From Allochromatium vinosum DSM 180 (lineage in GTDB: Bacteria; Pseudomonadota; Gammaproteobacteria; Chromatiales; Chromatiaceae): a DNA stretch of 64,000 bases. The DNA is taken from assembly GCF_000025485.1 (NCBI RefSeq), contig NC_013851.1:1403154-1467153 (forward strand), written 5' to 3'. Under the pieces are notes generated by a model, which did not search any database, had not been told where the DNA came from, and worked only from the letters and a program-made list of their open reading frames with translations. A program made the position numbers and the translations under genes. Shown here piece after piece: positions 6,243 to 40,700 of the stretch; positions within the stretch are counted from its first letter, which is position 1; each line of letters begins with the position of its first letter.

Positions 6243-7631
6243 GTGAACAGGCTCATCGTGCTCTTTCTGCTACTGATCGCTCTGCCCGTGTCGGCTGTCG
6301 CGGTGGAGGTCGACTGTCACTGGAATTCAGAGAATTCGGGTAGAACCCAGTTGCTCCTCGGCGTCACGGCGCCGGTCGCGCACCGCATCTTCGCCCTCGA
6401 TCAGCCCGACCGGGTGGTGATCGACATCGCCGGGGCCCGGCTGCGGGGAGCCTTGCCGGCGGCACGCACCGACGACCCGGTGCTGATCGGTGTGCGCGCC
6501 GGCGTGCGACCCAACGGGGATTTGCGGATCGTGCTCGACCTCAAGCGTCCGGTGCGCGTCAAGAGTTTTGCCGCCAAGGCCGGTGGGCGACAGCCCCAGC
6601 TGGTCGTCGAGCTCCTGCCCAAGTCGCCTCAGGCCGCCGGATTCCAAACCGTCTCCAATCAGACTCCGGCCCCGCCGGTCTGGTCGAGCCGTGGGCGCAC
6701 GGCCATCGTCGCGATCGATGCCGGGCACGGGGGCGAGGATCCGGGGGCGATCGGGCCGAACGGCACGCGCGAGAAGGACGTGACCCTGGCCATCGCCCGC
6801 AAGCTGGAGCGCATGATCGAGCGCGAGCCTGGGATGCGCGCCGTGATGATCCGTGATGGCGACTATTATGTCGGACTGCGCGAACGCACCCTGATTGCGC
6901 GCGAGCACAAGGCCGATCTCTTCGTCTCCATCCACGCCGATGCCTACGACAATCCGGAGGCGCAGGGGTCGTCGGTCTATACGATCTCGCATGGCGCAGC
7001 CAGCAGCGAGGCGGCCAGTTGGCTGGCCGACCGCGAGAACAAGGCCGATCTCATCGGCGGCGTGGATTTGGCGACGAGCGACGATGTGCTGGCCTCGGTG
7101 TTGCTCGACATGACGCAGAACGCGACCCTGGAGCACAGTACCGAGGCGGCCACCTCAATGCTGCGTTATCTCAAGCGTGTCGGCCCGGTGCACAAGAGCG
7201 ATGTGCAGCGCGCCGGTTTCGTGGTGCTCAAGTCGCCCGATATTCCCTCGCTGCTGGTCGAAACGGCCTTCATCAGCAATGTCCATGAGGAACAGCGACT
7301 CCGCAGTAACGCCTATCAGCAGCGCATGGCCGAAGCGATCCAGGCCGGGATCAAGGGCTATTTCGCCAAGTATCCGCCTCAGGGTCTGCTGGCGGCCGAC
7401 GCGGGCCGGAGCATCGAGCGTTCCGGTTCCAGCGCCGCGTATGGGCTGAGATCCGCGTCCAGCACGCGCCCGAGCGGTCTGCGTGAGTATGTGATCAGCC
7501 AGGGCGATACCCTGTCCGGCATCGCCAAGCGCCATCGCGTGAGCCTCAGTTCGCTGCGTGCCGAGAACGGCCTCGGCGAAACCGATATGATCCAGGTCGG
7601 GCAGGTCATCGCCATCCCGACCGATTCCTGA
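6243..7631 (+). CDS. amiB: N-acetylmuramoyl-L-alanine amidase (AMIN - Amidase_3 - LysM)
   Basis: Periplasmic zinc amidase that cleaves the stem peptide from MurNAc during septum splitting. An N-terminal signal sequence (VNRLIVLFLLLIALPVSAVA) is followed by an AMIN domain (about residues 25-130), then the Amidase_3 catalytic domain (about 155-380) with zinc and catalytic motifs DAGHGGEDPGA, VSIHAD and LLVETAFISN. A C-terminal LysM repeat (LREYVISQGDTLSGIAKRH...) comes last. Start chosen at GTG 6243, preceded by GAGG and giving a clean signal peptide; an ATG at 6186 would add 19 residues. Family and position before mutL fit AmiB; AmiC is a close alternative name. Confidence 0.92.
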   Translation: MNRLIVLFLLLIALPVSAVAVEVDCHWNSENSGRTQLLLGVTAPVAHRIFALDQPDRVVIDIAGARLRGALPAARTDDPVLIGVRAGVRPNGDLRIVLDLKRPVRVKSFAAKAGGRQPQLVVELLPKSPQAAGFQTVSNQTPAPPVWSSRGRTAIVAIDAGHGGEDPGAIGPNGTREKDVTLAIARKLERMIEREPGMRAVMIRDGDYYVGLRERTLIAREHKADLFVSIHADAYDNPEAQGSSVYTISHGAASSEAASWLADRENKADLIGGVDLATSDDVLASVLLDMTQNATLEHSTEAATSMLRYLKRVGPVHKSDVQRAGFVVLKSPDIPSLLVETAFISNVHEEQRLRSNAYQQRMAEAIQAGIKGYFAKYPPQGLLAADAGRSIERSGSSAAYGLRSASSTRPSGLREYVISQGDTLSGIAKRHRVSLSSLRAENGLGETDMIQVGQVIAIPTDS

Positions 7632-17593: not shown

Positions 17594-19992
<2,399 letters not shown>

Positions 19993-34275: not shown

Positions 34276-34980
34276 TCAGGCCGGACTCTTCACCGGATCG
34301 ATGCCCTTGTGCGGGATGAAGAGACCGCAACCGAGCGCACGATGCGGCCCCAGCCCCTCACGCTGAAGCCGCATCGACTCCTCGCGCGTCAGTCCGGCGA
34401 GCATGAGGGCGCGGGTAGGGATCGGGCCGGCCGGTGTATGCAGGGTCGTGGCCTTGCCGCAGAGCGCCTTGCGCACGCGGATGTCGAGTGCGCCGAGCGC
34501 TTGCGCGGCGGCTTCGAGAAAGCGCGATTCGTCGGCGAACGCCTCGGCATCGGCACTGGGGTCCGTCGCCAGATAACGCGCAAAGATGGTCGTCTCCTGA
34601 CTCAGGGGCTTCGGCTTGGCCGCGCCGATCGTCAACGGCTGACCACCGACATCGATCCGCCGCCCCTGGAGACGCGCCGCCAGATCGTCCGCCCGCGCGC
34701 TCGGAACGCGAATCGTCAGCTTGGTGCGGCGCGAGACCATGATCAGCGCCTCGGGCGAGTGCTCGGGCCGCTCCCAGCCGTTCTGCGATCCGGCGACATG
34801 GATGGTATGCACGCCCAGGCGCGGTTCCTCATCGAACCAGGGCACCAGAGCGCGCACCGCGCTCGACAGGGCGTAGGCATGGTCGACCGGCAGACGCTTG
34901 CAGTCGATCGCAAACAGCAGATCGACGATATCGTCCGGCAGTCGGAGCGCGTCGGTCGGTTCGTCTTCGTTCCAGAACAT
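34276..34980 (-). CDS. Orphan Cas6/Cmx6-like RNA endonuclease family protein
   Basis: The 234 residues follow the pattern of the type I-MYXAN Cas6/Cmx6 family, which processes CRISPR transcripts: an N-terminal ferredoxin-like half (VDLLFAIDCKRLPVDHAYAL, VRALVPWFDEE, GVHTIHVAG) and a C-terminal glycine-rich loop GLGPHRALGCGLFIP preceded by LTREESMRLQ. Histidines at VDHAYAL and GVHTIHVAG could be catalytic. There is no CRISPR array or other cas gene in the window, so it may have been recruited to another RNA. ATG at 34980. It ends the three-gene minus-strand set between the phosphate island and dsrA. Confidence 0.7.
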   Translation of the reverse strand: MFWNEDEPTDALRLPDDIVDLLFAIDCKRLPVDHAYALSSAVRALVPWFDEEPRLGVHTIHVAGSQNGWERPEHSPEALIMVSRRTKLTIRVPSARADDLAARLQGRRIDVGGQPLTIGAAKPKPLSQETTIFARYLATDPSADAEAFADESRFLEAAAQALGALDIRVRKALCGKATTLHTPAGPIPTRALMLAGLTREESMRLQREGLGPHRALGCGLFIPHKGIDPVKSPA

Positions 34981-35016
34981 TCGGTCGGTCTCGGAATCCT
35001 TGGAATCAGGGATGGA

Positions 35017-35742
35017 TCAATAGGGCAGGCGCCGCTGAAGCGCCTCGCGGTCGAACCACCAGTCGTCCTGGACCAGCACATCGACGACATTGCGCAGACG
35101 TACCAGGAATTTCTCGGGTTCCTTCAGTTCCAGCCGCTCCATCCAGTGATCGAGCTGCTCGGGCGTCTCGATCTGACTGTGACGGTGCGCCACCGTACCG
35201 AGCAACTGGGTGGTGAAGAACATCAGATTCTCACGATGGTGTCCCTCGGCACGCACATCGGCCAGGAACAGCGCCGTGGTCGCCGCCACCGCCGCGCCAT
35301 CGGCGTCGTCCGGCGTCTCGTCGATCACATGATTGAGCAGCTCGATGGTCAGCTCGGGATCGATGGGGCAGGTGACGGCCAGCCAGATCCCCTGCCCGAG
35401 CGCAGCGACCGAACCGGGCTGTTCGGACTGGAACAGCACGTCACAGGCATCGGCCGCCGACTCGAACTGGTCCCATTCGATGAAGTGATCGAAGGCGGCA
35501 CGCGCCAGCGGCCAGGCTTCCACTCCACGCTCCAGATTGACCAGGGTCCGTGCGACCTGCAAGCGCAGATCAGCCAGCTCATGCGCCGAGCCGCTGCCGT
35601 GCTCGATGGCCGCGAGCCGTTCGTTGAGCACCTGAAGATGCGACTCCAGCGCCGCGAATTCACTGCCATGATTGAAGACGGAATCGGCGGCAGTGTCCGG
35701 CAGTCGGATGGCGAAGGGGTCGAATGACTTCATGGTGTTCAT
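35017..35742 (-). CDS. Conserved-looking helical protein, unknown
   Basis: A 241-residue acidic, mostly helical protein with no family I recognise. Stretches such as LADLRLQVARTLVNLERGVEAWPLARAAFDHF and WDQFESAADACDVLF (quoted in part) look like helical-repeat (TPR/HEAT-like) packing. ATG at 35742 chosen; a second ATG three codons later (35733) is equally possible. It precedes the Cas6-like gene by 36 bases and follows a small gene, so the three probably form one unit. Codon and base use are like the neighbours. Confidence 0.65.
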   Translation of the reverse strand: MNTMKSFDPFAIRLPDTAADSVFNHGSEFAALESHLQVLNERLAAIEHGSGSAHELADLRLQVARTLVNLERGVEAWPLARAAFDHFIEWDQFESAADACDVLFQSEQPGSVAALGQGIWLAVTCPIDPELTIELLNHVIDETPDDADGAAVAATTALFLADVRAEGHHRENLMFFTTQLLGTVAHRHSQIETPEQLDHWMERLELKEPEKFLVRLRNVVDVLVQDDWWFDREALQRRLPY

Positions 35743-35779
35743 GGCGTGAGAAACCCTGCTGGTCGTTAGGATCGTGGAA

Positions 35780-35971
35780 TCAGCGCAGCAGGCCGCTGAA
35801 GGCGGCCTCGAGTCGGTCCTCCCAGTTCTCCGGCGTGTCCGGGTAGGGCGGCTTGACGTCCATGCGGAAGAACCGCTCGCCGGAACGCGCCACGGCCTGG
35901 ACGAGCGGGATGAGTTCGTCGAAGGATTCGAGGTCTTGGTTGGCAACCAGGATTTCGCTGAGCTTGAGCAT
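35780..35971 (-). CDS. Small protein, unknown, upstream of the Cas6-like set
   Basis: A 63-residue, acidic protein (MLKLSEILVANQDLESFDEL...). No motif or membrane segment is seen; it ends AAFSGLLR. The open frame allows an earlier ATG at 36022, which would add MTWHAPNPSIHTDTQTQ; that segment looks non-coding, although GGA lies nearby upstream, so the start is uncertain. First gene of a probable three-gene unit divergent from dsrA. Confidence 0.5.
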   Translation of the reverse strand: MLKLSEILVANQDLESFDELIPLVQAVARSGERFFRMDVKPPYPDTPENWEDRLEAAFSGLLR

Positions 35972-36212: not shown

Positions 36213-36242
36213 TTGACTTTCTGGTGAGCTGGCTTGTAGGAT
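36213..36242 (+). promoter_or_regulatory. Sigma-70-type promoter of the dsr cluster
   Basis: TTGACT (36213-36218), an 18-base spacer, then TAGGAT (36237-36242). The -35 matches consensus at five of six positions; the -10 at four of six. Transcription would start near 36249, leaving a leader of roughly 330 nt before the dsrA ATG. The palindrome directly upstream supports this as the regulated promoter. Confidence 0.6.
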
Positions 36243-36581
36243 TTTTCGCCAATCCGGCCGCTGTCTTTGATCGCTGGGCCACATCACCTGCGGAAGGCTC
36301 CAGGCACTGGCGTATATCTCCAAAGGGATAGAGGTCGAGGAGGATATCCCCCCCCGATCGTGGAATGGGCGCGCATCCTGTCCATGGGTATATTAGAAAA
36401 CGCCGATGGGGTTGAGGGTCCGGCTCGATACGCACGCCGAGCGTGTCGGTACCACCGGCTCCACACACAGACCCGACGCGATGCAGCGATCCGCGCTGTC
36501 CCGGCCAAGCGGTCGAGACAGGTTCGTGCACGCGCACAAACCATATCCGTTCCTGGTTATATCGATAGGAGAGACCGCGCA
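36243..36581 (+). other. Long dsrA leader without recognised gene
   Basis: About 330 bases lie between the predicted transcription start and the dsrA ATG. The dsrA frame stays open back to 36267, but no ribosome-binding site or DsrA-like residues support an N-terminal extension. It includes a run of eight C (about 36348-36355) and short GC-rich inverted segments. It might carry an RNA element or a second, nearer promoter. AGGAGA at about 36567 is the dsrA ribosome-binding site. Confidence 0.5.
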
Positions 36582-37835
36582 ATGGCTATCGACAAGCACG
36601 CGACCCCGATGCTCGACCAGCTCGAGACCGGTCCCTGGCCCAGCTTCATCTCCGGCATCAAGCGTCTGCGCGACCAGCACCCGGACGCGCGCATCAATGC
36701 CGTGACCAACGACCTGCTCGGTCAGCTCGAACACTCCTACGAGACCCGCAAGGGCTACTGGAAGGGCGGTACCGTGTCGGTGTTCGGCTATGGCGGCGGC
36801 ATCATTCCGCGCTTCTCCGAAGTCGGCAAGGTCTTCCCCAGTTCCAAGGAATTCCACACCGTCCGCGTCCAGCCGCCGGCAGGCAACCACTACACCACCG
36901 CCATGCTGCGCCAGCTCGCCGATACCTGGGAGAAGTACGGCTCGGGTCTGATCACCTTCCACGGCCAGACCGGCAACATCATGTTCATCGGTGTCGATAC
37001 CCCGAACACCCAGAACTTCTTCGACGAGATCAACGACTACGGCTGGGATCTCGGCGGCGCCGGTCCCTGCGTGCGTACCGCCATGTCCTGTGTCGGCTCG
37101 GCGCGCTGCGAGATGTCCTGCACCAACGAGCTGAAGGCCCATCGGCTACTGGTCAACAACTTCACCGACGATGTGCACCGTCCGGCGCTGCCCTACAAGT
37201 TCAAGTTCAAAGTCTCCGGTTGCCCCAACGACTGCCAGAACGCCATCGAGCGTTCCGACTTCGCCGTCCTCGGCACCTGGCGCGACGACATGAAGGTCGA
37301 TCAGGCCGAAGTCAAGCATTACATCGCCGACAAGGGCCGCCAGTACTACATCGACAACGTCATCACCCGCTGCCCGACCAAGGCACTGTCGCTCAACGAC
37401 GACGACACCCTCGACGTCAACAATCGCGACTGCGTGCGCTGCATGCACTGTCTGAACGTCATGCCGAAGGCGCTGCATCCCGGCGACGACAAGGGTGTCA
37501 CCATCCTGATCGGCGGCAAGCGCACCCTCAAGATCGGCGATCTGATGGGCACCGTGGTCGTGCCGTTCAAGAAGCTGGAGACCGAGGAAGACTACGAGTC
37601 GCTGGTCGAGCTGGCCGAGACCATCATCGATTTCTGGGCCGAGAACGGTCTGGAGCACGAGCGTTGCGGCGAGATGATCGAGCGCATCGGTCTGGCCAAC
37701 TTCCTGGAAGGCATCGGCATCGAGCCGGACCCGAACATGCTGAGCCACCCGCGCCAGAGTTCCTACATCCGCATGGATGGCTGGGACGAGGCGGCCGAAG
37801 AATGGTTCGCGCGTCAGGCCGAGGCCGGTCGCTGA
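36582..37835 (+). CDS. dsrA: Reverse-type dissimilatory sulfite reductase alpha subunit
   Basis: DsrA with DsrB forms the cytoplasmic siroamide/[4Fe-4S] enzyme that, in sulfur oxidisers, converts sulfur from the DsrC relay to sulfite. The 417 residues carry the siroheme-iron-sulfur cysteines in CVGSARCEMSC (about 169-180) and GCPNDCQ (about 213), plus a ferredoxin-like insert with CVRCMHC (about 285). GRTL-like FGYGGGIIPRFSE is also typical. ATG at 36582 follows AGGAGA. dsrB starts 54 bases after the stop. Gene order and residues indicate the sulfur-oxidising rather than sulfate-reducing type. Confidence 0.98.
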   Translation: MAIDKHATPMLDQLETGPWPSFISGIKRLRDQHPDARINAVTNDLLGQLEHSYETRKGYWKGGTVSVFGYGGGIIPRFSEVGKVFPSSKEFHTVRVQPPAGNHYTTAMLRQLADTWEKYGSGLITFHGQTGNIMFIGVDTPNTQNFFDEINDYGWDLGGAGPCVRTAMSCVGSARCEMSCTNELKAHRLLVNNFTDDVHRPALPYKFKFKVSGCPNDCQNAIERSDFAVLGTWRDDMKVDQAEVKHYIADKGRQYYIDNVITRCPTKALSLNDDDTLDVNNRDCVRCMHCLNVMPKALHPGDDKGVTILIGGKRTLKIGDLMGTVVVPFKKLETEEDYESLVELAETIIDFWAENGLEHERCGEMIERIGLANFLEGIGIEPDPNMLSHPRQSSYIRMDGWDEAAEEWFARQAEAGR

Positions 37836-40618: not shown

Positions 40619-40629
40619 GCGGACGAGCG

Positions 40630-40669
40630 TCCGGCGCGCGCGGTTCTTTTGAACCTGTGGCGCGCCGGA
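40630..40669. other. Strong stem-loop between dsrC and dsrM
   Basis: TCCGGCGCGC (40630-40639) pairs with GCGCGCCGGA (40660-40669), and an inner GGTTC (40642-40646) pairs with GAACC (40651-40655) around a TTTT loop. The internal bulges are 2 and 4 nt. With 15 base pairs, mostly GC, this should block 3' exonucleases or slow RNA polymerase, leaving more dsrC than dsrM message. No T run follows. Confidence 0.7.
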
Positions 40670-40700
40670 TTCCATCAAGCTCCACCGAGGGTGCGGAAAC

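Follow-up and report, generated by a model that had tools for sequence, protein, structure and literature searches.

Cas6, the nuclease that matures crRNA in CRISPR systems, is encoded next to the dsr operon of Allochromatium vinosum DSM 180, and across genomes its presence follows dsrAB much more closely than it follows CRISPR. Among the Gammaproteobacteria families sampled, which include purple sulfur bacteria and sulfur-oxidizing symbionts, this Cas6 is a near-obligate companion of dsr. It is almost certainly dedicated to Dsr, and on balance we favor a single domestication that took place early in the Gammaproteobacteria as GTDB defines them, the protein having since been a near-obligate accessory to sulfur oxidation by the oxidative (reverse) Dsr pathway. 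A first-pass annotation of the locus had suggested that Cas6 and its two neighbors were domesticated beside dsr; co-occurrence, linkage, and the tree strongly support this, well past one genome.

The window, i.e., the whole stretch of 64,000 nucleotides that was analyzed, belongs to a genome of 3,669,074 bp in three contigs, and its named relatives are A. humboldtianum (96%) and A. palmeri (90%). The portion of PMC3368242 at hand gives dsrABEFHCMKLJOPNRS of A. vinosum DSM 180 as Alvin_1251 to Alvin_1265 and records dsr mutants of this species. Leftwards from dsr, the order is a small acidic gene, a TPR-like gene, and cas6:

36582..37835, plus strand: dsrA, which opens the divergent dsr operon (TIGR02064, 696 bits)
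35780..35971, minus strand: small acidic protein of 63 aa (MLKLSEILVANQ...ERFFRMDVKPPYPDTPENWEDRLEAAF...), with 15 invariant columns in a 28-row alignment (A3)
35017..35742, minus strand: candidate TPR-like, all-helical protein of 241 aa, a probable scaffold
34276..34980, minus strand: dsr-type Cas6 of 234 aa, an open reading frame with GLGPHRALGCGLFIPHKG near the C-terminus

The start of the small protein was placed at the ATG at 35971, which is common to the rows of the 28-row alignment.

By sequence and predicted fold, the product of the window's cas6 gene is a Cas6. Profile searches assigned it to this family, with scores above the cut-offs for both Pfam PF09559 (E = 1.6e-66, 224.3 bits, cut-off 26.7) and TIGR02807, cas6_cmx6 (118 bits, cut-off 98.85), and PADLOC Cas6 models matched it with E values down to 1.5e-63. 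PF09559 also matched 61 of the 61 members of our alignment A4. The 234-residue protein with a glycine-rich loop that had been recognized in the first pass is present as described, and no CRISPR array was found in the window, whose dense direct repeats are limited to a GAGCCA region (19247-19533) and one 24-nt pair. The former is a long tandem tract, one frame of which would give Glu-Pro repeats. No type I-MYXAN context (cas3, cmx8/cas8, cas7, or array) is found beside the window's cas6, whose recurrent neighbor families are dsr genes. Elsewhere in the genome, CRISPR parts comprise a second Cas6 (PF10040) and a Cas1 on contig C2. As DevR/Cas7 (PF01905) had no match in this genome and the single PF09559 match is the window's own Cas6, a type I-MYXAN locus elsewhere without a cas6 of its own, a case raised in the first pass, gets no support. 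The annotation "type I-MYXAN Cas6/Cmx6" in sulfur oxidizers is no evidence of CRISPR.

The association with dsr was analyzed in three sets of genomes. Among 142 relatives, Cas6 matched in 95, one of these matches (G054) spanning only 32 residues where a contig stops. dsrAB, called at E ≤ 1e-20 with weaker matches counted as other sulfite reductases, was present in 93 of the 95 Cas6-positive relatives versus 1 of the 47 Cas6-less ones (Fisher 1e-33). The Cas6, dsrAB, and Cas1 sets of these relatives, like the sets and coordinates of the class sample, were compiled by hand from search listings. The two Cas6-positive genomes that have no dsrAB call are G046, with a dsrA fragment at a contig end (L183), and G057, whose contig stops 57 bases from the small gene. 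G045 carries dsrA and gave no Cas6 in a whole-genome search; the 2.9 kb of contig upstream of its dsrA contain neither cas6 nor the TPR-like or small gene.

A second set of 171 Gammaproteobacteria, chosen from across the class with almost every genome from a different family, contained 57 genomes with Cas6, 58 with dsrA, 54 with both, and 110 with neither (Fisher 8e-36), leaving three with Cas6 only and four with dsrA only. In all seven discordant genomes the contig runs out within 2.3 kb in the direction of the expected partner, so that absence and an assembly gap are indistinguishable there. The dsrA match starts at contig base 6 in G557, 195 in G549, and 658 in G586, and in G599 a contig edge carries the small gene together with what we read as the beginning of the TPR-like gene. 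From the start of Cas6 to the contig end there are ~0.8 kb in G603, ~2.2 kb in G546, and ~1.3 kb in G570, and neither partner gene is found in the 1.3 kb of the latter.

In a sample of 398 Pseudomonadota, five genomes had Cas6, each of them next to a divergently oriented dsrA, and the five dsrA-positive genomes of the window's class all carry it. Cas6 was found in none of the 48 genomes with dsrA outside the class (E ≤ 1e-50, 47 over the cut-off), in searches that scored at most seven or at most four first-look candidates per genome and that a weak Cas6 could escape. Five dsr loci outside the class gave no convincing Cas6 (best E = 0.4). The existence of oxidative-type dsr operons without Cas6 outside the class argues that Cas6 is not needed for the chemistry. 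The labels "alpha-type," "oxidative-type," and "distant, probably beta" represent our own reading.

In a tree of 50 rows, a 99/97 branch splits 42 dsr-type from 8 CRISPR-type proteins, and Cas6 was apparently fixed beside dsr through a single event. The dsr-type rows comprise 38 of the window's kind and 4 distant ones (L177 to L180, probably from Betaproteobacteria), with L110 and L144 not beside dsr in the stretch examined. Four Chromatiaceae genomes hold both a dsr-type and a CRISPR-type Cas6, and G025 has an extra weak, partial match; an array of 22 repeats and a Cas1 lie in the same stretch as the CRISPR-type copy L087. The dsr-type Cas6 has its family, fold, and glycine-rich loop in common with CRISPR-type Cmx6 (I-MYXAN, TIGR02807; PF09559), and its residues His34 and Cys218 also occur in all eight aligned CRISPR-type proteins. 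In contrast with these, it adjoins dsr and is accompanied by neither array nor effector genes. Cys174 of the window-type protein is in none of the eight CRISPR-type rows, and W69, R71, and P72 correspond to a gap in all eight CRISPR-type and all four distant dsr proteins; they belong to the stretch SQNGWERP (residues 65-72) that marks Chromatiaceae-type Cas6 proteins. Viral contigs and phage records gave no relative, and plasmids gave eight records, seven with an annotated cas6 and one without. Of four plasmid records inspected, three have the canonical Cmx6 copy next to cas3 and either cmx8 or cas8a1. The fourth differs: this Gloeobacter plasmid has a Cas6/Cmx6-annotated gene (L206:5974-6765) amid hypothetical genes and a PAPS-reductase-family gene, and this stretch of 12.6 kb holds no named cas effector gene.

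Neither the 241-aa TPR-like protein nor the 63-aa small protein had a clear match among Pfam, TIGRFAM, and PADLOC models. No TPR-family sequence profile matched the former, whose sole Pfam match was DUF1177 (E = 0.14). The small-gene family is present in 50 and the TPR-like family in 46 of 57 neighborhoods. The distant loci have the order dsrA, then divergent DUF6967-Cas6; Pfam identified DUF6967 (PF22295) in L177, and a search for the family recovered it in all four. In L179 the two form one fused frame of 294 aa, which suggests that DUF6967 and Cas6 act in one complex in the distant type. Like dsr-type Cas6, DUF6967 is tied to dsrA-positive genomes. It occurs in 9 of the 398 phylum genomes, all dsrA positive (L210 to L218), namely, the four distant genomes with a dsr-type Cas6 plus five from outside the class that have no Cas6 match. 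Eight of the nine have it upstream of dsrA in divergent orientation, and G428 has it on another contig. With its presence in Cas6-less genomes outside the class, DUF6967 seems to be the more widespread accessory of oxidative dsr, and Cas6 seems to be an addition of the window's class. DUF6967 was not detected in the window's genome; the alignment of the 63-aa protein to it is weak (probability 0.9%), and its identification as DUF6967 was dropped. DUF6967 is in itself a candidate Dsr accessory that is unstudied.

A bolder reading, to which we give a probability of about 0.35, is that a CRISPR-free Cas6 ribonucleoprotein, with a TPR-like scaffold and a small sensor-like subunit or with the DUF6967 fusion, cuts an RNA of the sulfur regulon and meters the Dsr machinery across the class. 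The predicted fold, the conservation, the linkage, and the co-occurrence were observed, whereas we infer the complex, the cleavage, and the target. In the explanation that we favor, Cas6 would be held by the TPR-like scaffold and the small acidic partner, or by DUF6967 in the four distant loci. It would bind, and probably cleave, a specific cellular RNA, most likely a product of the dsr/sulfur regulon, and this would set Dsr protein levels posttranscriptionally. An RNA-processing role is plausible from the predicted fold and the retention of His34 and the glycine-rich loop. That dsr-type Cas6 binds or cleaves RNA is probable; that it acts on dsr-derived RNA is a more tentative proposition, with the odds somewhat against it.

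The residues bear on whether Cas6 acts as a nuclease. The check by structure prediction that had been proposed in the first pass placed His34 directly before a helix (residues 35-45); we take the catalytic His of Cas6 to lie at the start of helix 1, which makes His34 the putative catalytic residue. It is kept in 61/61 rows of A4 and 49/50 rows of a second alignment, A1. G211 and G217, in the glycine-rich loop near the C-terminus (residues 209-221), are invariant in both alignments, and several Arg/Lys columns are, like those of His34 and the loop, invariant or nearly so. Alternatively, the Cas6 fold might serve without catalysis as an RNA- or protein-binding platform, for instance in Dsr assembly or translational control with the TPR-like protein as adaptor. 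Two lineages without His34 (Asn in L086, Tyr in L180) fit such a platform, as does the TPR-like partner, which hints at protein-protein work. So does the nearest solved structure, Cas6 of a type I-B CAST Cascade (PDB 8fcj and 8fcu), which has Asn at the aligned place but, unlike dsr-type Cas6, is part of a CAST Cascade. However, the near-invariance of His34, the glycine-rich loop, and the Arg/Lys columns exceeds the apparent needs of a scaffold, and we consider a purely non-catalytic role rather unlikely.

Genes of the dsrA/dsrB family lie within ~9.7 kb in 51 of 57 neighborhoods, and all 102 such open reading frames are on the opposite strand. Within the class sample, 42 of the 54 cas6-dsrA pairs are within 6 kb of each other, 42/42 being divergent; of the other 12, one pair shares a contig at a distance of 42 kb, and the remaining 11 are split between contigs, in some cases at contig edges. 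This divergent layout, with dyads in between, would suit a Cas6 that cleaves or binds only its own small-TPR-cas6 transcript and whose linkage to dsr reflects shared control of divergent promoters. Autoregulation alone is nevertheless improbable, as it leaves unexplained both the absence of Cas6 from dsr-less genomes and the presence of cas6 in at least seven dsr-positive genomes (G058, G065, G095, G118, G128, G574, and G585) with no dsrA in ~7 kb or more on either side and dsrA elsewhere in the genome. The retention of cas6 away from dsrA indicates that dsr-type Cas6 probably acts in trans. Maturation of crRNA in trans, for arrays elsewhere in the genome, is more improbable still. The window's Cas6 does belong to the same family as Cmx6, and Cas1 (E ≤ 1e-20) is commoner with Cas6 (51 of 95 Cas6-positive versus 11 of 47 Cas6-less relatives). 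However, 44 of the 95 Cas6-positive genomes, some of them incomplete, have no such Cas1 match, and 34 have none at any listed E value; the window's genome has no PF01905 Cas7; Cas6 presence follows dsr almost perfectly; and the four genomes with a CRISPR-type Cmx6 carry it as a second protein. Least likely of all is that cas6, being mostly adjacent to dsr, was carried along by descent alone, which is largely refuted by its retention in the genomes without a nearby dsrA and disfavored by dN/dS values of 0.06 to 0.18 in four same-genus comparisons, with which cas6, the TPR-like gene, and the small gene all look to be under purifying selection.

The region upstream of dsrA contains the following elements:

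36213..36242, plus strand: distal sigma70-like motif in the sequence, TTGACT N18 TAGGAT, with ATATTAG before it
36315..36330, no strand assigned: dyad 1, TATCTC CAAA GGGATA (consensus TATCCC-n4-GGGATA), candidate and probable operator of the dsr promoter
36345..36366, no strand assigned: dyad 2, a degenerate copy, TATCCCC...GTGGAAT, ending 36 nt after dyad 1
36389..36394, plus strand: TATATT, predicted -10 box for the proximal promoter of dsr, 22 nt beyond dyad 2

The dyad 1 consensus was matched at 11 or more of its 12 positions in 108 of 129 dsrA upstream regions, which include some organisms twice (120 of them reduce to 67 clusters), versus 0.04% of shuffles. None of 18 control dsr loci, three of which (L203 to L205) are second dsr copies of Cas6-positive genomes, reached 11/12, and two reached 9 or 10. 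The pattern TATCYCNNNNGGGATAG has one site in the window's own genome. Dyad 2 was found in 64 of 89 distinct rows, in 63 of them at 32 to 36 nt, and 58 of these 64 rows have a -10-like box, 57 at 21 to 23 nt; the spacing pattern used for the 89 rows omitted TATCTC variants, including the window with its own spacings of 36 and 22. The fixed spacing to the second copy and the -10 box indicates that the element is mainly DNA rather than an RNA hairpin. In the 67 clusters, transitions in the arms that leave a G-U pair and those that break pairing numbered 18 versus 18 (18 versus 33 for all changes), and there were two double changes. With its fixed spacing and arm changes indifferent to G-U pairing, CTATCCC-n4-GGGATAG was rejected as a CRISPR-repeat-like RNA hairpin and Cas6 target. 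In L181, where there is no cas6, the dyad element is still present. We read the dyads as two activator sites in tandem, near -44 and -76, in a dsr promoter that has no -35 box and probably depends on a putative activator. The center of the loop is biased (AA 50, TT 18, other 19), which is unexplained by a symmetric operator. A TTGAC-N16..18-TANNNT motif precedes the dyad in 40 of 100 rows, the window having the motif but standing outside that count; with this distal promoter motif before the dyads, a longer dsr leader may exist.

For cleavage of a sulfur-regulon RNA by Cas6, the structures within the dsr message were candidate substrates, and hairpins of this message had been proposed as the target in the first pass. 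One of these candidates in the window is as follows:

40630..40669, plus strand: dsrC-dsrM intercistronic hairpin, in an intercistron of 82 nt that folds to -39.3 kcal/mol

The window's dsrA-dsrB gap folds only to -6.8. Across the loci of the class, both regions are more stable than shuffled sequences (median z of -2.17 for dsrA-dsrB, n = 97, and -2.75 for dsrC-dsrM, n = 88). Five oxidative-type operons outside the class in which no Cas6 was found gave much the same values (median z of -2.06 and -2.61, respectively), and eight dsrA-dsrB gaps of other non-class operons had a median z of +0.75. By stem length the pattern is weaker: perfect stems of at least 9 bp occur in 37/98 dsrA-dsrB and 54/93 dsrC-dsrM regions of class loci and in 3/14 and 2/5, respectively, outside the class. 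The intercistronic hairpins were rejected as Cas6 substrate because they are alike in the five operons where no Cas6 was found. As the upstream element behaves as a DNA dyad and similar hairpins form without Cas6, the proposal of a dsr-message hairpin as target did not hold, and no Cas6 substrate is shown. In the dsrA leader, 11 near relatives share a weak consensus stem (z of -5.2 versus column shuffles), and a wider set inspected by eye has no shared motif; Rfam at gathering thresholds gave no match in the window. Positions 40619-40700 and their counterparts in relatives form a strong, sequence-variable dsrC-dsrM hairpin in oxidative-type operons, perhaps for dsrC mRNA stability.

In the open-licence literature we found no paper describing a Cas6-dsr link. 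cas6 is drawn in a figure of sulfur-gene organization in mangrove genomes and is undiscussed in the available part of the text (PMC10989796). Where Cas6 or cas is named in the available parts of PMC5944118, PMC10952691, PMC5728499, PMC7540712, PMC8889020, and PMC9071438, ordinary CRISPR or cas loci are meant, and the available part of PMC11406059 does not mention CRISPR. According to an excerpt of PMC11267869, dsr genes drop unequally on pyrite, from log2 -4.7 (dsrA) to -1.2 (dsrC), which leaves room for posttranscriptional control and is no demonstration of it. If the ribonucleoprotein reading is true, this Cas6 has a metabolic and not an immune role. The finding points to a missing layer, probably posttranscriptional, in how a pathway central to the sulfur cycle is controlled, and A. 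vinosum offers a route to asking what Cas6 does outside immunity.

Other genes lie near dsrA or cas6. A TauD-like dioxygenase gene is repeatedly found near dsrA, its family being present in 22 of 57 neighborhoods; PF02668 matched both proteins tested (L037:7335-8366 and L181:8726-9628), and further copies were recognized by eye (L238:447-1373, L220:8948-9925, and L177:8658-9575). In L177, the gene after cas6 (6791-7120) encodes a DsrC paralogue (PF04358) and is followed by what reads as a rhodanese-like open reading frame.
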